Source: Qipengyuania seohaensis
Lineage (GTDB): Bacteria; Pseudomonadota; Alphaproteobacteria; Sphingomonadales; Sphingomonadaceae
Direction of reading: 5' to 3'
DNA: 64,000 nucleotides
Assembly (NCBI RefSeq): GCF_002795865.1
Contig: NZ_CP024920.1
Span: 1,399,001 to 1,463,000 of the forward strand
Position 1 is the stretch's first letter, and every line of letters begins with the position of its first letter. The position numbers and the translations under genes are program-made. The notes beneath the pieces were generated by a model. The model was given only the letters and a program-made list of their open reading frames with translations, did no database searches and was not told the DNA's origin. Shown here piece by piece: positions 177 to 64,000 of this stretch.

Positions 177-866
177 ATGATTTCCAAGCGCAGCACGATT
201 GCCGTGACGATGCTTGCCGCAGGCATGAGCATCGCAGCCGCTCCGGCGCACGCGGAAACCAACGCAGCAGCTGCTGCGGTCGGTGCCATCGACGTATCGA
301 AGGTTACCTCCGACAGCGCCGGCGAAGCGGACGAGCAGTTCACCGAACTCTTCGCTCGCTGGGAAGCGCCGAACCAGCTTTCGCTCATCACGGCCGGCCC
401 GCAGGTTGCCATCCCTTCGCGCATGCCGCTCGAAGACGCCAAACTGACGAGTGACTATGGCATGCGCACCCACCCGGTGCTGCGTCGCCGCATGGGTCAC
501 AAGGGTGTCGATCTCGCCGCACCGACCGGTACGCCGATCTACGCGACGGCAGACGGCGTGGTTTCCAAGGCGGAACGGTTCTCCAGCTACGGCAAGTTCG
601 TCAGCATCGAGCACGGCGCCCGCATCCAGACGCGTTACGCGCACATGTCCGCAATCGCCGTGACCGACGGCGCCCGCGTCAAGAAGGGCGACCTGATCGG
701 CTATGTCGGCTCGACCGGTCGCTCCACCGGCCCGCACCTTCACTATGAAGTCCGCATCGACGGCGAGGCGGTCAACCCGGTTCCCTACATGGTCGAATCT
801 TCCGCCCAGCGCGCTTTCGCCCTCGCAATCGGCGAAGGCGGCCAAGGCGGTGGCGACGAGGACTGA
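177..866 (+). CDS. M23 (LytM-type) peptidoglycan endopeptidase, exported
   Basis: Probable zinc metallopeptidase of family M23, expected to cut peptide cross-links of peptidoglycan in the periplasm. The start at 177 is chosen because it begins with a clean signal peptide (Lys-Arg, hydrophobic stretch, cleavage after AHA near residue 26). A TTG 84 bp upstream would add an implausible basic N-terminus. The LytM core is complete: HPVLRRRMGHKGVDLAAP supplies the first metal ligands (H...D) and GPHLHYEV the HxH ligand. Nothing suggests degeneration. It stands alone, followed by a strong intrinsic terminator. The family also contains catalytically inactive amidase activators, but the intact ligands argue for an active enzyme. 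Specificity cannot be read from sequence. Confidence 0.9.
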   Translation: MISKRSTIAVTMLAAGMSIAAAPAHAETNAAAAAVGAIDVSKVTSDSAGEADEQFTELFARWEAPNQLSLITAGPQVAIPSRMPLEDAKLTSDYGMRTHPVLRRRMGHKGVDLAAPTGTPIYATADGVVSKAERFSSYGKFVSIEHGARIQTRYAHMSAIAVTDGARVKKGDLIGYVGSTGRSTGPHLHYEVRIDGEAVNPVPYMVESSAQRAFALAIGEGGQGGGDED

Positions 867-908
867 GATTTTTCGAAAGGCCACGAGCCCTTCGGGTCAG
901 CGGAATTA

Positions 909-936
909 GGCGTCGGAGCGATCCGGCGCCTTTTTT
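909..936 (+). terminator. Intrinsic terminator after the M23 gene
   Basis: A nine-pair stem (GGCGTCGGA with TCCGGCGCC, one G-U pair), a GCGA tetraloop and a run of six T. It lies 43 bases past the stop codon of the M23 peptidase and 90 bases before the acyl-CoA ligase. Confidence 0.88.
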
Positions 937-1024
937 CTTGCCCGAACGCAGCAGGTAGGTAGGTTTCTTTGAGCAACCGGACGAGTCCGCCAACAGGACC
1001 GACGGCAGTGAGAGAGAGAACCCT

Positions 1025-2572
1025 ATGCACCCCATCACCCACGCGCAGGCGCGCCCCGACCATCCCGCGATCATCATGGCCGGGAGCGGCGAGACAGTGA
1101 CCTACAGGGAGATGGACGCCTACGCCAACCGCTTCGCCCAGCTGCTGCGCGCGCGCGGCCTCAAGCGCGGCGACCACGTGGCGATACTGATGGAAAACAC
1201 CATCGATTACCTGCAACTGGTCTGGGGATCGCAGCGTGCGGGCACGATGATGGTGCCGATCTCGACGCGCCTGACCGCTCCGGAAATTTGCTACATCCTC
1301 AAGGACGCAGGTGCGAAGCTGCTGATCACCTCGCGCTATTTCGACAATGTGATGGCCGACATCCGCGCCGACTGTCCGGACATCGAAATCCTCGCAAAGG
1401 ACGGAGAGGGCGAGGAGAACCTTGCGACTGCGCTGGCGAAATATCCCGCCGAACCGATCGAGGACCAGGCTCCGGGTCAGTACATGCTCTATTCCAGCGG
1501 CACGACCGGAAGGCCCAAGGGTATCCGCCCAGCGCCGCCTGCCGATGATGATATCCTCGCAGTGAACCCGCTCGTCGGCCTTGCCGTGATGGGTGTCGGC
1601 TGGCCGGCGGATGGCAGCATGATCTACCTTTCGCCCGCCCCGCTCTATCACGCGGCACCACTCGGCTGGTGCACCACCGCGCATCGGCTCGGGGCAACGA
1701 TTGTCGTGATGGAGAAATTCGACCCCGAGACCGCTCTCGAAGCGATCGAGAAATACCGCGTGACCGACAGCCAGTGGGTGCCGACCCATTTCGTTCGAAT
1801 GCTGAAGCTCGATCCCGAAGTGCGCACGCGCTACGATCTCTCCACCCACACCCGCGCGATCCATGCGGCGGCTCCGTGCCCCGTGCCGGTCAAGCGCGAA
1901 ATGATCGAATGGTGGGGTCCCATCGTCATCGAATATTATGCCGGATCGGAAGGCATCGGCATGACGCTCGTGAAGAGCGAGGACTGGCTCACGCACCCCG
2001 GCACGGTCGGCAAGCCGATTCACGGGCAGCTGCATGTCTGCGGACCCGATGGAGAGGAAGTGCCTGCGGGGACCGACGGCCTGCTCTATTTCGAAAACGA
2101 GAACATTCCGACCTATCACAACGACCCGGAAAAGACTGCCGACGCCATGCATCCCAAAGGCTGGATGACGTTGGGCGATATCGGTCATGTGGACGAGGAC
2201 GGGTTCCTCTTCCTGACCGACCGCAAGAGCCACATGATCATTTCGGGCGGCGTCAACATCTACCCGCAGGAGATCGAGAACCTGCTCGTCACGCATGACA
2301 AGGTCATGGATGCCGCCGTGATCGGTGCGCCCTGCCCAGATTTCGGCGAAAAGGTCGTTGCCGTCGTCCAGCCCATCGACATGGGCGAGGCGGGCGAAAC
2401 GCTGGAAGCGGAACTGCGCGATTTCCTCGCCCCGCAGCTTGCCAAGATCAAGATGCCCAAGCTGTTCGACTTCCGCGAGCAATTGCCGCGCGAGGCCAAT
2501 GGCAAGCTGTACAAGCGCGAATTGCGTGACGAATACACGAAGAAGGCGGAGATAGAAGCGGAGCAGGCATGA
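1025..2572 (+). CDS. AMP-forming acyl-CoA synthetase
   Basis: ANL-superfamily ligase of 515 aa, expected to activate a carboxylic acid through an acyl-adenylate to its CoA thioester. Visible motifs: the phosphate-binding YSSGTTGRPKG at about residues 156-166, YYAGSEG for the adenine pocket, the LTDRKSHMIISGGVNIYP hinge region, and the C-terminal PREANGKLYKRELR carrying the catalytic lysine. Length is normal. The stop overlaps the ATG of the following P450 by four bases, so the two are translationally coupled and likely act on one substrate. That is compatible with degradation of a sterol, terpene or branched fatty acid side chain, but the substrate is inference. The sequence after the P-loop (GIRPAPPADDD) is slightly unusual for the family. 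Confidence 0.9.
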   Translation: MHPITHAQARPDHPAIIMAGSGETVTYREMDAYANRFAQLLRARGLKRGDHVAILMENTIDYLQLVWGSQRAGTMMVPISTRLTAPEICYILKDAGAKLLITSRYFDNVMADIRADCPDIEILAKDGEGEENLATALAKYPAEPIEDQAPGQYMLYSSGTTGRPKGIRPAPPADDDILAVNPLVGLAVMGVGWPADGSMIYLSPAPLYHAAPLGWCTTAHRLGATIVVMEKFDPETALEAIEKYRVTDSQWVPTHFVRMLKLDPEVRTRYDLSTHTRAIHAAAPCPVPVKREMIEWWGPIVIEYYAGSEGIGMTLVKSEDWLTHPGTVGKPIHGQLHVCGPDGEEVPAGTDGLLYFENENIPTYHNDPEKTADAMHPKGWMTLGDIGHVDEDGFLFLTDRKSHMIISGGVNIYPQEIENLLVTHDKVMDAAVIGAPCPDFGEKVVAVVQPIDMGEAGETLEAELRDFLAPQLAKIKMPKLFDFREQLPREANGKLYKRELRDEYTKKAEIEAEQA

Positions 2573-3870
2573 TGGCGAGCGCAGCGAAACCCCGGCTCGA
2601 TGCGGAGACTGCCTATGAGGTCATCTCTCCGGAAAGCTACGCCGGATGGGATCCGCTGCTCGACACGTTCGACCGGCTGCGGGAAGAAAGCCCGGTCGCC
2701 TGGGTCGAGGACCCCGAAGGCCGTCACCCGCCTTTCTGGCTGGTCAGCCGCTACGACGACGTGATGCGCGTCTCGAAGGACAACGCGACTTTCCTCAACA
2801 ATCCGCAGACGGTCGTGTTCAGCCTCACCGAAGGGATCGAGTTCGCCAAGAACCTTACCGGCGGCAGCCCTCACATGGTCGCCAGCCTCGTCACTTTCGA
2901 CGCGCCGATCCACATGAAGTACCGCAAGCTCACGCAGGAATGGTTCATGCCCAAGAACCTGCGCACGCTGGAGGACGAAACCCGCGAGCTGGCGCACAAG
3001 ACGGTGGACCGGTTGATCGACGCAGGGCCGCAGGCAGACTTCTGCAAGCTCGTCTCGCAGCCCTATCCGCTTCACGTCGTCATGCAGATCCTCGGCGTGC
3101 CGGAAGAGGACGAGCCGCGCATGCTGATGCTCACGCAGCAAATGTTCGGCGGGCAGGACGAGGACCTCAACCAGTCCGGCATGAAGGATCTACCGCCCGA
3201 AGCGATCACCCAGCTGGTCGCCGGCGCGGTGAAGGATTTCGAGACCTACTTCGCAGGTCTCACGGCGGAAAAGCGCGCCAATCCGACAGACGACGTTGCG
3301 AGCGCCATCGCCAACGCCACGGTCGACGGGGAACCGCTGAACGACCGGGACATGATGGGCTATTACATCATCGTCGCCGCCGCCGGCCACGACACCACCA
3401 GCGCCAGCACGGCAGGCGCGATGCTGGCGCTGGCGCAGGACCCCGAACAGTGGGCGAAGGTGAAGGCCGACCGCTCGCTCCTTCCCGGCATTGTCGAAGA
3501 GGCGATCCGTTGGACCAGCCCAGTTCAGCACTTCATGCGCACGGCGGCCGAGGACACCGAGCTTGGCAGCCAACAAATCGCCAAGGGCGACTGGCTGATG
3601 ATCAATTACGTCGCCGCCAATCACGATCCGGCGCAGTTCGAAAATCCTCGCAAGTTCGATGCCAGCCGCAGCCCCAACCGGCACCTCGCCTTCGGAGCCG
3701 GGGCGCACCAGTGCCTCGGCCTCCACCTCGCACGGCTGGAAATGCGCATCCTGTTCGAAACGCTGCTCGACCGGATCGAGAGTGTGGAACTGGCCGGAGA
3801 ACCGAAGCGCGCGAAATCGACCTTTGTCGGAGGGCTGAAGACCTTACCGCTTCGCATTACACCGGCCTGA
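2569..3870 (+). CDS. Cytochrome P450 coupled to acyl-CoA ligase
   Basis: Soluble bacterial P450 of 433 aa. The I-helix oxygen-activation motif reads AAAGHDTTSAS, the K-helix ExxR is EEAIR, and the heme loop AFGAGAHQCLG places the thiolate at about Cys382. There is no membrane anchor, so it is a cytoplasmic monooxygenase needing ferredoxin and ferredoxin reductase. No ferredoxin gene is adjacent; a ferredoxin-reductase-like flavoprotein lies about 21 kb downstream. The ATG overlaps the stop of the acyl-CoA synthetase (ATGA), implying joint expression and a shared substrate. The subfamily and substrate are not assigned. Confidence 0.92.
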   Translation: MMASAAKPRLDAETAYEVISPESYAGWDPLLDTFDRLREESPVAWVEDPEGRHPPFWLVSRYDDVMRVSKDNATFLNNPQTVVFSLTEGIEFAKNLTGGSPHMVASLVTFDAPIHMKYRKLTQEWFMPKNLRTLEDETRELAHKTVDRLIDAGPQADFCKLVSQPYPLHVVMQILGVPEEDEPRMLMLTQQMFGGQDEDLNQSGMKDLPPEAITQLVAGAVKDFETYFAGLTAEKRANPTDDVASAIANATVDGEPLNDRDMMGYYIIVAAAGHDTTSASTAGAMLALAQDPEQWAKVKADRSLLPGIVEEAIRWTSPVQHFMRTAAEDTELGSQQIAKGDWLMINYVAANHDPAQFENPRKFDASRSPNRHLAFGAGAHQCLGLHLARLEMRILFETLLDRIESVELAGEPKRAKSTFVGGLKTLPLRITPA

Positions 3871-3926
3871 AGTCGAAAATCCATGAATCCAAGTCAAACC
3901 CCCGCAATTGTGGGGAAAATCGAACT

Positions 3927-3965
3927 CGGTTCATCGCATATTTCTACGGTTCACCGCACATTTCT
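3927..3965 (+). promoter_or_regulatory. Tandem 20-bp-spaced direct repeat upstream of yqiJK
   Basis: Two 19-bp copies, CGGTTCATCGCATATTTCT at 3927 and CGGTTCACCGCACATTTCT at 3947, differ at two positions and lie exactly 20 bp (two helical turns) apart. They lie about 90 bp before the yqiJ start. The phasing is what a regulator dimer binding one face of the helix would need. The factor is unknown. Confidence 0.5.
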
Positions 3966-4057
3966 GCTAGGTGAATGACATGGATACAACAGTAGGGGGA
4001 TCCACTTTCGGCTAATGCCGGAGGCGGTACTTTCTGCGCATGGGAAAGGGGGAAATC

Positions 4058-4693
4058 ATGACATTGCTGGAGCCGCACAACATGCCGTTTGCGGCCGCGC
4101 TCGTCATCATGCTGATCCTCGCGGTCGTCCAGTTGATCGGGATTGCCGATTTCGGCGATGCAGATGTGGACCTGGACGCGGATGCCGACGGGATGCCGGA
4201 TGCGGGAATGCTCGACGGGCTGCTCACGCTGCTCGGCATCGGGCGCGTGCCGCTGACGATATGGATCATGCTGTTCCTGGGCGCGTTCGCCATCATCGGT
4301 CTTTCGGTCCAGGCGCTCGCCGATGATCTCATTGGCGGCCCGTTCTACAGCTGGCTCGCCGCGCTGATCGCAGGCGGGGCCGCGCTGCCGGTGACGGGCC
4401 TTATTGCCCGCCCGCTGGGCCGCCTGATGCCGCAGGACCATACGACAGCGGTAAGCATCGAAAGCCTTGTCGGCCGCCGTGCGAAAATCACGGATGGCGT
4501 GGCCCGGGCAGGTTCGCCCGCCCGCGCCCGGGTCAAGGATGTCCACGGCCAGGCGCATTACGTCATGGTCGAACCGCATGAGGCAGCATCCGAAATCCAC
4601 GCCGGCGACGAGGCTCTCCTCGTCCGCCGCGAGGGCAATACATTCTTTGCGACCGCGCTCGCCGAGCGTCGCCTGTCGCCAACAGTCAACTAA
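4058..4693 (+). CDS. yqiJ: YqiJ-like (NfeD/OB-fold) membrane protein
   Basis: Inner-membrane partner of the flotillin encoded next. Transmembrane segments are visible near residues 9-30, 65-85 and 95-125, followed by a soluble C-terminal domain of OB-fold/NfeD type. An acidic loop rich in Asp (DADVDLDADADG) follows the first helix. The start at 4058 is chosen for the AAAGGGGGAAATC Shine-Dalgarno just ahead; an ATG 18 bp upstream is in frame but lies before that site. The yqiK gene follows 12 bp downstream. In this family the NfeD-type protein and flotillin assemble in membrane microdomains, and the precise job is not settled. Confidence 0.8.
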   Translation: MTLLEPHNMPFAAALVIMLILAVVQLIGIADFGDADVDLDADADGMPDAGMLDGLLTLLGIGRVPLTIWIMLFLGAFAIIGLSVQALADDLIGGPFYSWLAALIAGGAALPVTGLIARPLGRLMPQDHTTAVSIESLVGRRAKITDGVARAGSPARARVKDVHGQAHYVMVEPHEAASEIHAGDEALLVRREGNTFFATALAERRLSPTVN

Positions 4694-4705
4694 GAAGGAG
4701 GAGCA

Positions 4706-6466
4706 ATGGACAGTCTACTTGAAACGGGAATTATCGGCATGGCGGTCATCGCCATCGTGGTGGTCTCATTTTTCGCATTCCTGCTGAGGATGTACCGCAG
4801 AGCCTCGAAGGAGATTGCCTTCGTGCGGACCGGCGTGGGCGGCGAAAAGGTCGTAATGAACGGGGGCGCTCTGGTGCTGCCGGTCTTGCACGAAACCATG
4901 CCCGTCAACATGAACACGCTGGTACTTTCGGTCATTCGCCGCGATGGCGAGGCGCTGATTACGCTCGACCGGCTGCGGATCGACGTGAAGGCGGAATTCT
5001 ACGTCCGCGTGAAGCCCGATGCCGATGCGATCGCCATGGCCGCGCAAACGCTGGGCCAGCGCACGATGCAGCCGGAAATGCTCAAGGACCTCGTCGAAGG
5101 CAAGTTCGTCGACGCGCTGCGCAGTGTTGCTGCCGGCATGACCATGAACGAGCTGCACGAACAGCGTGCCGACTTCGTACAGAAGGTGCAGCAAGTGTCG
5201 TCGAACGACCTCGCGATGAACGGCCTGGAGCTGGAATCGGTCTCGTTGACCGGTCTCGACCAGACCAGCATCGAGCATTTCAACGCCAACAACGCCTTCG
5301 ACGCCGAAGGCCTGACCAAGCTGACCGAGCAGATCGAGGCGCGCAAGAAACTGCGCAACGACATCGAGCAGGACACGCGCGTGCAGATGGAAACGAAAAA
5401 CCTGGAAGCTGACACCCGCAGCTTCGAGATCAGCCGTGACAACGAATATGCCCGGCTGCAGCAGGAACGCGAGGTGGAAATCCGCCGCGCCGCCCAGGCT
5501 TCGGAAATCGCCCGCGAACAGGCAGAGCGGCAACGCGAGGCCGATGCTGCCCGGATCGAGGCGAAGAAGCAGGTCGACGCGCAGCAGATCGAGGCCGACC
5601 GTCTCGTCGAAGAGGCGCGGATCGACCAGCAGCGTGCACTCGAAATCGCGCGCCAGGAGCAGCAGATCGCAGTCCAGAACAAGAGCCGCGAAGAAAGCCA
5701 AGCCAAGGCGGAGGCCGACGAAGCCCGCGCCAAAGCCGTCGCTGCCGAAGAGCAGGTCGCAACGAGCCGTGAAAGCGAGATCGCCGAAAGGCAGAAGAAG
5801 ATCGAGCTGATCGAGGCATCGAAGCAGGCCGAGCGCGAAGCTATCAGCGTTCGCGTCGAAGCAGAGGCCGAAAAGGACGCTGCATCGAACCGCGCCGAAG
5901 CGCTGCGCCTCGAAGCGCAGGGTGAAGCCGAGGCCGAGAAGCTGCGTGCAGAAGCTGCGCGTGTCCGCTTCGAAGTCGAGGCAGCCGGTCAGAAGGCGAT
6001 CAACGAGGCGGCGAATATCCTGTCGTCCGACCAGATCAGCCTGCAGACGAAGATGGCCCTGCTCAAGGTCCTGCCGGAACTGGTCAAGGAAAGCGCCAAG
6101 CCGATGGAAGCGATCGAGAGCATCAAGATCGTGCAGGTCGACGGGCTCACCAATGGCGGCGGCAAGTCGTCGGGCGGTGCAGCCGGTGTCGGCGGCGGTT
6201 CGGGTAATCTCGCGACCGATGCGGTCAGCGCAGCGCTGGCCTACCGCGCTCAGGCTCCGGTGCTCGACGGGCTGATGAAGGAACTGGGCCTCGACGGCTC
6301 CAGCCTCAACAGCCTGGTCAAGGGCCCGGCCGAGCAGACCGGCGGCTTTGAAGTGGAAGACGCGCCCAAGCCTGCCAAGGAAGATGCCCCCAAGGCACTT
6401 CCCGCCAATGGCAAGGGTGCGGAGAAGAGCAAGGATGGCGGCGAAAGCCCCAAGGCCGACGCCTGA
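4706..6466 (+). CDS. yqiK: Flotillin family protein YqiK
   Basis: Flotillin/SPFH protein of 586 aa. An N-terminal membrane helix (about residues 8-28) is followed by the SPFH domain (about 40-200). A very long Ala/Glu/Gln/Arg-rich coiled coil (about 220-440) comes next, and the tail is glycine-rich then Lys/Pro-rich. Flotillins oligomerise through the coiled coil and organise membrane microdomains. The start has a strong site (AAGGAGGAGCA before ATG). It forms a two-gene operon with yqiJ and is followed by an intrinsic terminator. The low-complexity C-terminus (GGGKSSGGAAGVGGGSG) fits the flexible flotillin tail. Confidence 0.92.
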   Translation: MDSLLETGIIGMAVIAIVVVSFFAFLLRMYRRASKEIAFVRTGVGGEKVVMNGGALVLPVLHETMPVNMNTLVLSVIRRDGEALITLDRLRIDVKAEFYVRVKPDADAIAMAAQTLGQRTMQPEMLKDLVEGKFVDALRSVAAGMTMNELHEQRADFVQKVQQVSSNDLAMNGLELESVSLTGLDQTSIEHFNANNAFDAEGLTKLTEQIEARKKLRNDIEQDTRVQMETKNLEADTRSFEISRDNEYARLQQEREVEIRRAAQASEIAREQAERQREADAARIEAKKQVDAQQIEADRLVEEARIDQQRALEIARQEQQIAVQNKSREESQAKAEADEARAKAVAAEEQVATSRESEIAERQKKIELIEASKQAEREAISVRVEAEAEKDAASNRAEALRLEAQGEAEAEKLRAEAARVRFEVEAAGQKAINEAANILSSDQISLQTKMALLKVLPELVKESAKPMEAIESIKIVQVDGLTNGGGKSSGGAAGVGGGSGNLATDAVSAALAYRAQAPVLDGLMKELGLDGSSLNSLVKGPAEQTGGFEVEDAPKPAKEDAPKALPANGKGAEKSKDGGESPKADA

Positions 6467-61314: not shown

Positions 61315-61584
61315 ATGGCAGCGATCCGCAAGCTCACCGAGAATTTCATCGCTACAGAAGTCGGGGACGAGACCCTACTCATCGATCTCGACGGCGGCGA
61401 AATGTTTTCACTGAGCGGCACTGCCCGCGCAATCTGGGACGCGATCGACGGAAAACGCGGCGTGCCAGCAATTGCAGCGGCCCTCGCGCCCTTATTCGAT
61501 GAAACGGTAGAGGTGATCGAACGCGATGCGATCGCATTGGTAGCGGCCCTGGCCAAGGCAGGGTTTGTGGAAGAACTCAATTGA
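61315..61584 (+). CDS. PqqD-like RiPP recognition protein
   Basis: An 89-aa PqqD family protein (LTENFIATEVGDETLLIDLDGGEMFSLSGTARAIWDAI, then ALAPLFDETVEVIERDAIALVAALAKAGFVEEL). It has the three-strand, three-helix RRE layout that binds leader peptides. In lasso loci this is the B1 protein. It begins a cluster with a small peptide gene, an asparagine-synthetase-like cyclase and an ABC transporter. Confidence 0.87.
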   Translation: MAAIRKLTENFIATEVGDETLLIDLDGGEMFSLSGTARAIWDAIDGKRGVPAIAAALAPLFDETVEVIERDAIALVAALAKAGFVEELN

Positions 61585-61644
61585 AAACGGGCTTTTGACG
61601 CTTGGCGATGGGATGGTATGTTCGATCTCGAAAGGCCTACCAGC

Positions 61645-61779
61645 ATGACTCAGAAGAATGACGACAAGACCGGCAAGGCCCAGTGGCGCCGACCTGAATT
61701 GATTCGCCTTGGCACGATCCGCGATATCGCCGGTCCTCCCGTTCCCATTGCCCAGGCTGCCGGAAACAAGCGTTCCTGA
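61645..61779 (+). CDS. Lasso-like RiPP precursor peptide
   Basis: A 44-aa peptide, MTQKNDDKTGKAQW then RRPELIRLGTIRDIA as leader and GPPVPIAQAAGNKRS as presumed core. The leader resembles lasso leaders: an aromatic residue three before Pro (W..P), PELIRLG and IRDIA, versus YxxP...LG.. in canonical ones. The putative core starts with Gly but has no Asp or Glu at positions 7-9 (they are Ala, Gln, Ala). No Thr occurs at the penultimate leader position. An in-frame ATG 27 bases upstream is a possible alternative start. An AAAGG lies ahead of the chosen ATG. Confidence 0.75.
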   Translation: MTQKNDDKTGKAQWRRPELIRLGTIRDIAGPPVPIAQAAGNKRS

Positions 61780-61800
61780 AGGCTACGCCGGACGATCGAG

Positions 61801-63690
61801 ATGATCGCGGGAATCGTTGATTGGTCCGGGGCGCAACCGCGTCACGCCCGTCCCGTATTGGATGCGGTTTCCCTCTACGAGAGCGGCAGGACAAATTCCC
61901 TTCGCGCAGAAGGCCTGCTTTTCGCGTCGTCCAGCCGGGACTCGATCGGCGGCGCGCATGACATCGACACCGCGTTTACCGGATGGATCGACAATGCGGC
62001 AGAATTGGCGCTTCGGTTCGCAGCTAATGCTGCCAATCCCGCCGCGCTATATTCTGCTGCACTGGCCGAATTGGGCGAAGGGGCCGATGAGGCAATAATC
62101 GGGTGCTACGCGGCAATTTCACGCCTGCCCGATGGCACTGTGTACTTGGGACGCTCGCCTTGGAGCGCGCCGCCGCTTTATTATCACGCCACATCGGAAC
62201 GTTGCGTGGCATCGCCCTTGCTGCGCGCGGTGTTCGCCGCAGACGCTCCGCGAGAACCCGACTACGAAAGGATTGTCGACGAGCTCGCCTATGATTGGCG
62301 CTCGGGGGAGGAAGATGCTTGGTACCGGGGCATCCGGATGGTGCCGCTGGGCGCCGCCGTGCGTGTCGAGGGAAGTGAGCATCGCACCCGCCGCTGGTAT
62401 TCGCCACCAACGCCCGCACTCGACATGCCCTACGACGAAGATGCGTCTGTCGAGCGAGCGCGGGAACTGCTCGACGAAGCAGCGAGAAAGGCGCTCGAGT
62501 GGGCAGAAAGGCCCGCAATCACGCTTTCCGGAGGCCTGGATTCGCCCCTCGTCGCCACATCGCTTTTGGCAGAAATACCGCACGACAAAAGCCTGCCAGC
62601 CATTACATTCGTGCCGGATGCACGCTGGAATGGACACGCCCCCGAAGGGACGATGGGCGACGAAAGCGCGCTGGTCCGCGAATTGGTCGAGACAAACCCG
62701 CAAATCGATTGGCACCTTGCCGACAACGACATCGGCCCGCCCGATCGCCATGCCCGGGAAGTGTTCGCCGCATCCGAAGTTTTTGCTCCTGGATTGGCGA
62801 ATGTCGGGATGTACCACGGGGTTTACCGCAAGGCGCGCGAGCTGGGATGTGACAGCCTCCTGACGTCAGACATGGGCAATCCGACAATCAGCGACGATGG
62901 CCGCTATGCCTATTGCGAATATGCATCGCCCGGAAAATGGAAGCAGCTGATGCGCTTGCTGAAAAACCGCCCCGGCGACAGCCGTAGCCTGTGGCGCAAG
63001 TTCATCGCGCTCACCATCTTGCCGCGCCTCCCCCGATCTGTTCGGCGCGCGCTTCGATCCTTGGTCCATCCGCGCCGCGCGGACATGGTCGCCCTGCTCA
63101 CACCGCTGTCGAAGGCCGCGCGCGAGCAGCAAGCGGCCAGGGCCGGAGGGCGCGGCACAGGCTCGGCATGGAGCGACCTCACCTTCGACCGCAGCCGCAA
63201 GGACGCGGTGCAGCGTGAATTCCGCGATGCCGACGGCCTTGGCTTCGATGTCGACCTGGCTTTCGAGCAATTGTACGGCGTGCGCAAACGCGACGTTACA
63301 GCCTATCGCCCGCTGATCGAGTTCTGCCTCTCTCTCCCGGCTGAAGCTTTCGCATGGGACGGCGAGGAACGCAGACTGGCGCGCCTCATGGGCATCGGCA
63401 GGCTGACCGAAGCAATCCGCACCAATCGAAAACACGGGCTGCACAATGTCGACTGGCATGCGCGCATGACCGGCGAGCGGGAGGAGATGCGCCGCGTCCT
63501 CGATACAGCGCGCGGGCACCCGGTACTCGGTGAAATGCTGGACATCGACAGGCTGCTGGGCCTCATCGACGATTGGCCGGACCGCCCCGGCCATGATGTC
63601 GACGAAGATTGGCCCCGAATGCTCGCCTTGCCGCGCGCGATGTTGCTGGCGCGTTTTGTGGGGCATGTCGAGAATCGCAACGACCTGTGA
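61801..63690 (+). CDS. Asparagine-synthetase-like lasso cyclase
   Basis: A 629-aa member of the AsnB superfamily. The C-terminal synthetase domain has the ATP pyrophosphatase loop SGGLDS (243-248) and DMGNPTISDDG. The N-terminal glutaminase-like domain lacks Cys2 (it starts MIAGIVD), so it does not use glutamine ammonia. This matches lasso cyclases (C protein) that adenylate a side-chain acid for macrolactam formation. It sits 21 bases after the precursor gene. The precursor's missing acid raises the question of what this enzyme activates. Confidence 0.82.
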   Translation: MIAGIVDWSGAQPRHARPVLDAVSLYESGRTNSLRAEGLLFASSSRDSIGGAHDIDTAFTGWIDNAAELALRFAANAANPAALYSAALAELGEGADEAIIGCYAAISRLPDGTVYLGRSPWSAPPLYYHATSERCVASPLLRAVFAADAPREPDYERIVDELAYDWRSGEEDAWYRGIRMVPLGAAVRVEGSEHRTRRWYSPPTPALDMPYDEDASVERARELLDEAARKALEWAERPAITLSGGLDSPLVATSLLAEIPHDKSLPAITFVPDARWNGHAPEGTMGDESALVRELVETNPQIDWHLADNDIGPPDRHAREVFAASEVFAPGLANVGMYHGVYRKARELGCDSLLTSDMGNPTISDDGRYAYCEYASPGKWKQLMRLLKNRPGDSRSLWRKFIALTILPRLPRSVRRALRSLVHPRRADMVALLTPLSKAAREQQAARAGGRGTGSAWSDLTFDRSRKDAVQREFRDADGLGFDVDLAFEQLYGVRKRDVTAYRPLIEFCLSLPAEAFAWDGEERRLARLMGIGRLTEAIRTNRKHGLHNVDWHARMTGEREEMRRVLDTARGHPVLGEMLDIDRLLGLIDDWPDRPGHDVDEDWPRMLALPRAMLLARFVGHVENRNDL

Positions 63691-63736
63691 ACGAAGGTTT
63701 TGACCTTCGCTCCTGCAGGCGGATAGAGCTTCCAGG

Positions 63737-64000
63737 ATGACATTGCGTCAGGCCCTGGGCGAATTAGCGCAACCCGAGATGCACGGGGGCACCGTCAGGC
63801 TGCTGCTCGCATCGCTGGTCGCCGCCGCATCGGAAGGTGTCGGTTTCGTCTTGCTCGTCCCGCTCCTTTCTTCGCTCGAGCCGGAAGCTATGCAGGGTGC
63901 GATGCCGCCTTTCGCAGCTGGCCTCGAGCTTCCGGTCCTGCTGGCGTTTTTCGTTGTGCTGATCGCAGTACGCGCCGCAGCGGAAGTCTGGCGCGCGATC
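63737..64000 (+). CDS. ABC transporter, membrane part, partial at window edge
   Basis: The first 88 residues of a protein running off the right end. MTLRQALGELAQPEMHGG is followed by two hydrophobic helices (RLLLASLVAAASEGVGFVLL, LPVLLAFFVVLIAVRAA) typical of type-I ABC exporters with fused ATPase. In lasso clusters this is the D-type exporter that removes the product. The ATPase domain, and any B2 leader peptidase, would lie beyond 64000. Confidence 0.72.
   Translation, partial: MTLRQALGELAQPEMHGGTVRLLLASLVAAASEGVGFVLLVPLLSSLEPEAMQGAMPPFAAGLELPVLLAFFVVLIAVRAAAEVWRAI

Follow-up and report, generated by a model that had tools for sequence, protein, structure and literature searches.

In canonical lasso peptide biosynthesis, the cyclase adenylates the side chain of an aspartate or glutamate, which is then attacked by the N-terminal amine (as described in the available part of PMC9266682). 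The split B1/B2 lasso pathways share with the locus reported here a RiPP (ribosomally synthesized and post-translationally modified peptide) recognition element (RRE), a B2-type peptidase (here a candidate encoded elsewhere in the genome), an asparagine-synthetase-like (AS-like) cyclase, an ABC exporter and a leader with a W/Y-x2-P-x-L motif, as well as position 8 as a key residue of the core and Ile or Val at leader position -2, the latter reported for some Sphingomonadales lasso precursors (available part of PMC10368454). The locus lies at the end of a 64,000-nucleotide stretch of the 2.94 Mb genome of the marine bacterium Qipengyuania seohaensis (G000:C1:1399001-1463000; hereafter the window) and encodes a 44-aa precursor with a core devoid of Asp and Glu, in which a conserved Gln occupies position 8. 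A lasso-type pathway very probably acts on this core, and Gln8 is probably the residue that closes the ring. Closure through activation of the Gln8 amide, with an amidine as the favoured product, is plausible and stops a little short of being probable; that the ring bond itself is an amidine, not a lactam, is held tentatively.

The locus comprises four plus-strand genes in a row, encoding the RRE, the precursor, the cyclase with its SGGLDS motif and the start of the exporter, all of which were recovered at the place and on the strand given in the initial annotation of this DNA:

61315..61584, plus strand: RRE (PqqD-like, leader-binding, B1), 89 aa; Pfam PF05402, E 1.4e-15
61645..61779, plus strand: precursor gene, 44 aa; open reading frame with the same start in the L038 and L039 homologues
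61645..61731, plus strand: leader, 29 aa, W-x2-P-x-L-x3-G-x4-D-[IV]-A-like; alignment of 36 precursor leaders, end predicted from acid-type relatives
61732..61776, plus strand: core GPPVPIAQAAGNKRS, without Asp or Glu; translation, boundary by homology
61753..61755, plus strand: codon of core Gln8, the ring-closing position in acid-type relatives; Gln8 in 48/55 clade precursors
61801..63690, plus strand: cyclase (AS-like, lasso C protein), 629 aa; NF033535, PF00733 and tree
62527..62544, plus strand: cyclase PP-loop SGGLDS, residues 243-248; residues kept across the cyclase alignment
63442..63444, plus strand: residue 548 of the cyclase, His here; the 33 rows that fall outside the amide lineages have Gln
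63737..64000, plus strand: ABC exporter, first 88 of 555 aa; full gene L002:5737-7404, with 1,404 bases beyond the window

The absence of Asp and Glu from core positions 7-9, pointed out in the initial annotation, was confirmed and extends to the entire core. As an Asp or Glu at core positions 7-9 is the ring closer by which the lasso class is recognised, its absence sets the locus apart from ordinary lasso members. The precursor start (ATG 61645) is preceded by AAAGG; an in-frame ATG at 61618 would give 53 aa, and the L038 and L039 homologues align from 61645. The leader carries W-x2-P-x-L, and if the cut follows Ala, position -2 is Ile, in line with the Thr (or Ile/Val) that marks lasso leaders there. 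The comparison of precursors among relatives that had been proposed revealed a boundary common to the acid-type ones, namely ..[IV]A/ (the slash marks the leader/core junction) followed by Asp8, as in L174 (..GSIA/GNRHPPGD), L077 (..DAIA/GTAQVFGD) and L169 (..SAIA/AKNQPGND). As the window precursor has the same leader end (..RDIA/GPPVPIAQ), its Gln8 occupies the place of Asp8, and cleavage is predicted after Ala(-1). This shared layout lends no support to a leader ending elsewhere, one of the options initially listed. Among those options the comparison favours a peptide related to lassos but made by different chemistry, a conserved Gln replacing the acid in the same register. The distance from W to A in the leader is one residue shorter in the window than in L174. 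Counting the core by the published Tyr(-17) spacing would give Gln7, with Gly at -1; this count was set aside because L077, L174 and L169 share ..IA/ and then Asp8.

Within the GTDB family, 50 of the 298 genomes had a match to the cyclase (E 1e-20 or better). For the order the figure was 59 of 396 (1e-30; a set overlapping that of the family) and for the class, with a clade relative as query, 13 of 385, the window's own genome included. Precursors were found first by pattern and then with a profile of 36 leaders (without core residues, and built on precursors initially picked by pattern) run over all loci, a few more being added by pattern; the loci comprised those that the searches yielded together with family loci and additional ones from the order. 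In this clade, 55 precursors were read at 54 loci, all beside cyclases of the window's clade. Position 8 of the core was Gln in 48 of them and Glu in three (L065, L069, L170). Each of the remaining four has a different residue there (Pro, Asn, Ser or Thr), followed by Gln9 (L048, L056) or Asn9 (L079, L164), and 52/55 precursors have an amide residue at core position 8 or 9. Gln8 was the most conserved core residue except for the final Ser (54/55, mostly preceded by Lys or Arg), while position 1 was Gly in 43/55, the commonest residue at positions 2-7 and 9-11 reached 24/55 at most, and the tail after Gln8 ranged from 4 to 16 residues. Acids were absent from the whole core in 33/55 precursors and from positions 7-9 in 38/55. 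L168 lacks the usual leader end, and its register was therefore set by eye.

Several individual cores deviated from this general scheme. The precursors of L079 and L164, which belong to the same genus and are encoded directly upstream of the cyclase gene, lack both Gln8 and any acid at 7-9 and share Asn9, as though derived from Asp9; their cyclases have Thr548. L049 possesses tandem precursors before a single cyclase, with cores GKPVPFRQAHNNRKS and GKPVPVLQDAGNRKS, one acid-free and one with Asp9. Four amide-type cores (L056, L063, L163, L165) contain two cysteines and might form a disulfide. In the Glu8 loci L065 and L170, the core would start with Pro after Ala, and the actual cut may fall at another position.

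The cyclase matched PF00733 (Asn_synthase, E 3.4e-9) and the lasso cyclase model NF033535 (E 1.3e-15, with 57 bits against a cut-off of 525). Its PP-loop is intact, S243, G245, L246, D247 and S248 being kept in at least 84 of 90 cyclases. It had no match to a Pfam glutaminase (E up to 1) and no Cys at residue 2, and thus no obvious ammonia source. The nearest solved structures by profile were the beta-lactam synthetase 1JGT (E 9.4e-25) and the hydroxyamidotransferase 7YLZ (E 8.3e-35), which we take to be non-RiPP enzymes.

The 90 cyclases were placed in a maximum-likelihood tree (quick method, midpoint root, support by the Shimodaira-Hasegawa-like approximate likelihood ratio test (SH-aLRT) only, no bootstrap; 8/90 rows without a precursor read), in which the window cyclase grouped with those of acid-type clusters. 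The tree omits L097, a fragment, and L149 and L150, duplicates of L039 and L038. The branch of the window cyclase (SH-aLRT 99) contains 55 rows (47 Q8, 2 Q9, 2 N9, 3 E8, 1 unread), and the neighbour branch (support 88) contains 14, of which 11 are acid-type and one unread, the others being the pair L176/L177. This pair has Gln8, as against Asp8 in its neighbours, within A-RRE-B2-C operons like that of L169, and no acid precursor was seen there with the pattern used. To judge from its position in the tree, the pair is a case of Gln8 gained independently of the main clade, from an Asp8 background. Four changes between amide and acid are needed on the tree.

Column 548 of the cyclase alignment, within the motif G-x-[Q/H]-x-x-D-W, was Gln in 33/33 sister and outgroup rows other than L176/L177 (26 acid-type, labelled by eye from candidate precursors, some of them on the opposite strand or several kb from the cyclase, and 7 unread). 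It was not Gln in 52 of the 53 amide-core rows (H43, W4, T2, D2, P1), the L176/L177 cyclases having Asp. Residue 249, directly past the PP-loop, was Gln in 12/12 sister rows and Pro in 31/55 clade rows and in both L176 and L177; in the outgroup it is S, T, G or A, and it is less telling than residue 548. That Gln greatly outnumbers Glu and that residue 548 has changed suggests, as far as sequence comparison goes, a special handling of the amide. An altered GGDE-like motif was also considered as the key difference and discarded, since G-N-x3-S (residues 359-364 of the window cyclase) also occurs in relatives outside the amide clade. Candidates for amide-core cyclases beyond the family were likewise rejected, as the two best other matches of the class search (L183, L184) carry Gln in the motif around residue 548 and their 1.5-kb flanks showed no precursor; the other 18 class loci were scanned by pattern only. 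The amide-core branch of lasso-type pathways is coherent, and its member in the window gives the impression of functioning as lasso pathways do; neither a description of such a branch nor a report of Gln as a lasso ring residue was found in the open-licence literature among the matches listed.

The B2 peptidase that the initial annotation proposed to look for past position 64000 was not found within the 18 kb around the locus (L002, reaching 12 kb past the window). Two PF13471 genes scored above the cut-off in the genome, both distant from the locus; one of them (G000:C1:707509-707949), separated from it by about 753 kb, is a stand-alone B2 gene. Of the 36 clade loci taken with wide flanks, 13 carry a B2 gene in the space separating RRE and precursor; in L043 a B2 gene lies at a greater distance. 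A family search in 21 genomes gave a match in 20/20 genomes without an operon B2 and none in G146, which has no cyclase; in some of the 20, the match belongs to another lasso-like cluster. Of 12 clade genomes checked, 9 have the orthologue of the stand-alone B2 gene next to a gene resembling acyl-CoA dehydrogenase. Within the genus, it was present in 17/17 genomes with the cyclase (E 1.5e-44 or better) and 0/13 without, three of the latter giving weak matches (7.3e-7 to 9.9e-5) that were counted as absent. Family-wide, it occurred in 17/298 genomes (E <1e-22), 12 with the cyclase and five with no near cyclase (G016, G104, G120, G124 and G291), which have weak AS-like matches (E 1e-6 to 3e-19). 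From this co-occurrence with the cyclase, which is strong but tree-dependent evidence, we infer that the unlinked B2 acts on this locus in trans.

The genome also contains a second lasso-like cluster (L060; G000:C1:447000-459000, minus strand 614-5731), encoding a B2 protein, an AS-like protein with a glutaminase domain (GATase_7) and a GGDE motif, and an ABC exporter. A nucleotidyltransferase-like gene (identified by eye) lies on the opposite strand, and neither precursor nor RRE was identified in L060.

The four-gene locus of the window is flanked by a minus-strand gene, which we take from its sequence to be ribulose-phosphate 3-epimerase-like, and, directly after the exporter, by a gene encoding a DUF2141 protein. 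The RRE scored 57.8 bits against PqqD (cut-off 23.4), and the exporter matched ABC_tran (E 1.7e-30) and ABC_membrane (E 4.7e-11). The locus is conserved in Qipengyuania nanhaisediminis, Q. intermedia and Q. polymorpha; in L038 and L039, the loci of Q. nanhaisediminis and Q. intermedia, the operon is kept and cyclase identity is 78-79%. Between the window and these two loci, dN/dS ranged over 0.09-0.13 in the precursor and 0.08-0.13 in the RRE; the cyclase gave 0.13, and it was 0.16 for the exporter (window vs L038 only), all rough figures since dS was mostly >1. No internal stops were present in the listed cyclase homologues. Judged by these comparisons, the locus is real, with intact-looking genes under purifying selection. 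The RRE was present in 34/36 of the clade loci with wide flanks and was not found in L042 and the truncated L072. In six of the same 36 loci (L044, L045, L046, L048, L059, L064), no exporter was found beside the cyclase, which is followed there by a DUF2141-like gene (by eye), seemingly at the same chromosomal site. No MNIO, YcaO or recognised deamidase was detected among the operon proteins scanned, the YcaO search covering the operon and not the whole genome, and plasmids gave no match at 1e-20.

In the pathway proposed here, the RRE would bind the leader and the unlinked B2 would cut after Ala(-1). The cyclase would then fold the core and use ATP to adenylate the side-chain amide oxygen of Gln8, giving an AMP-imidate; attack by the freed Gly1 amine and departure of AMP would yield a Gly1-Gln8 amidine ring with the loss of 18.011 Da, for a calculated mass of 1443.7946 (the same as for a nitrile) against 1461.8052 for the linear core. 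The Lys/Arg-Ser tail may thread through this ring, and the exporter would remove the product. TilS and argininosuccinate synthetase are PP-loop precedents for the activation of amide or ureido groups. Extending the proposal to a lasso-type clade of 54 loci in one GTDB family, whose PP-loop cyclases would make an amidine ring from Gln8 (perhaps Asn9 in two) by a route reached at least twice, is slightly more tentative than the amidine assignment in the window itself.

As the main alternative, the product could be an ordinary Gly1-Glu8 lactam lasso (calculated mass 1444.7786), formed either after deamidation of Gln8 to Glu, perhaps by the B2 protein, or by direct closure in which ammonia (17.027 Da) is lost. 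B2 belongs to a transglutaminase-like superfamily, and transglutaminases are enzymes that deamidate and transamidate glutamine. A shared end product would also fit the Glu8 found at the same place in 3/55 precursors, on two separate branches nested among Gln8 members, both Glu8 members with data keeping His548. However, 48 Gln against 3 Glu is hard to explain for the same product, because an extra step would be required. Residue 548 is moreover altered in both amide lineages, and the operon scan recognised no deamidase. A lactam is rated only slightly below the amidine. It is improbable that no ring forms at Gln8, this residue being merely modified or recognised, with a nitrile made from Gln8 or the C-terminal carboxylate activated for a head-to-tail ring or an amide. 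AS-like RiPP enzymes do make C-terminal amides and nitriles (available part of PMC13060819), and the C-terminal Ser, mostly preceded by Lys or Arg, is nearly invariant in the clade; but acid-type candidate precursors end in Ser too, which leaves the final Ser unlinked to Gln8. The stretch after Gln8 varies in length, Gln8 stands in the register of the ring-closing Asp8, and the cyclase lacks a Pfam glutaminase match. A non-cyclic product, another option of the initial annotation, may be formed. Decay of the cluster, or its service to another, acid-bearing precursor elsewhere, is very improbable. The exporter missing beside the cyclase in 6/36 clade loci and the B2 gene outside the operon would fit decay; the dN/dS of about 0.1, the intact motifs, the lack of stops in the listed cyclase homologues and the co-occurrence of the cyclase with the unlinked B2 argue against it. 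A decayed cluster with an inactive cyclase and an acid-bearing alternative precursor had been named at the outset as the findings that would overturn the annotation. The locus bore no sign of the former, and a similarity search of the genome with the precursor found neither an acid-bearing alternative nor any second precursor.

Closure at Gln8 through its amide remains our preferred explanation, and the following points weigh against it. In the literature consulted, no precedent was found for amidine formation by a lasso cyclase, and the product is a prediction from gene comparison. In 14/55 cores, Asp7 or Asp9 stands beside Gln8 (Asp7 in 11, Asp9 in 4, both in 1), and closure there is possible. 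The tree contains only about two independent acid-to-amide changes, and a paired test, with three pairs on starred branches, was unable to reach significance. The amide-core cyclase of L056 keeps Gln548, and the E8 members sit within the amide clade; as the two with data keep His548, the enzyme type of this clade may accept an acid too. Column 548 aligns with H447 of beta-lactam synthetase, four residues past K443 (presumably the catalytic Lys443), at a place where the alignment is weak (i-Evalue 1.5). Beta-lactam synthetase is an acid-activating enzyme, and since it has the aligned His, His alone is no proof of amide activation.

If the ring acid is truly replaced in a large natural clade, the acid rule is not general, and the locus points to a possible amide-activating macrocyclase. 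As residue 548 varies with the substrate, a switch could be tested by single mutants. Genome mining that demands an acid would presumably overlook such clusters. An amidine ring, if confirmed, would make the product a cationic knot, closed by a chemistry new to lasso peptides.

Unlike the split B1/B2 lasso pathways, the present one has Gln or Asn at the ring-closing place, an unlinked B2 and a changed residue 548. Macroamidine RiPPs of the bottromycin type are made by YcaO enzymes, in contrast to this locus, where the proteins scanned, those of the operon only, include no YcaO. PesC, the AS-like nitrilobacillin synthetase, converts a C-terminal peptide amide into a nitrile via a proposed AMP-imidate (available part of PMC13060819), and thus offers, for an AS-like RiPP enzyme, a precedent for ATP-dependent amide adenylation. 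As described there, it differs in working at the C-terminus, drawing ammonia from glutamine and requiring prior hydroxylation by an MNIO, none of which was seen here. The lasso cluster of Qipengyuania pacifica, with B2, an AS-like gene, an isopeptidase and a TonB receptor, differs in gene content from the window locus, at least as described in the available part of PMC9318849. Metanodin, according to the available part of PMC12670498, also departs from the usual ring residues, with Asn at position 1; there, residue 1 is changed and an aspartate closes the ring, whereas here the acid itself is replaced.

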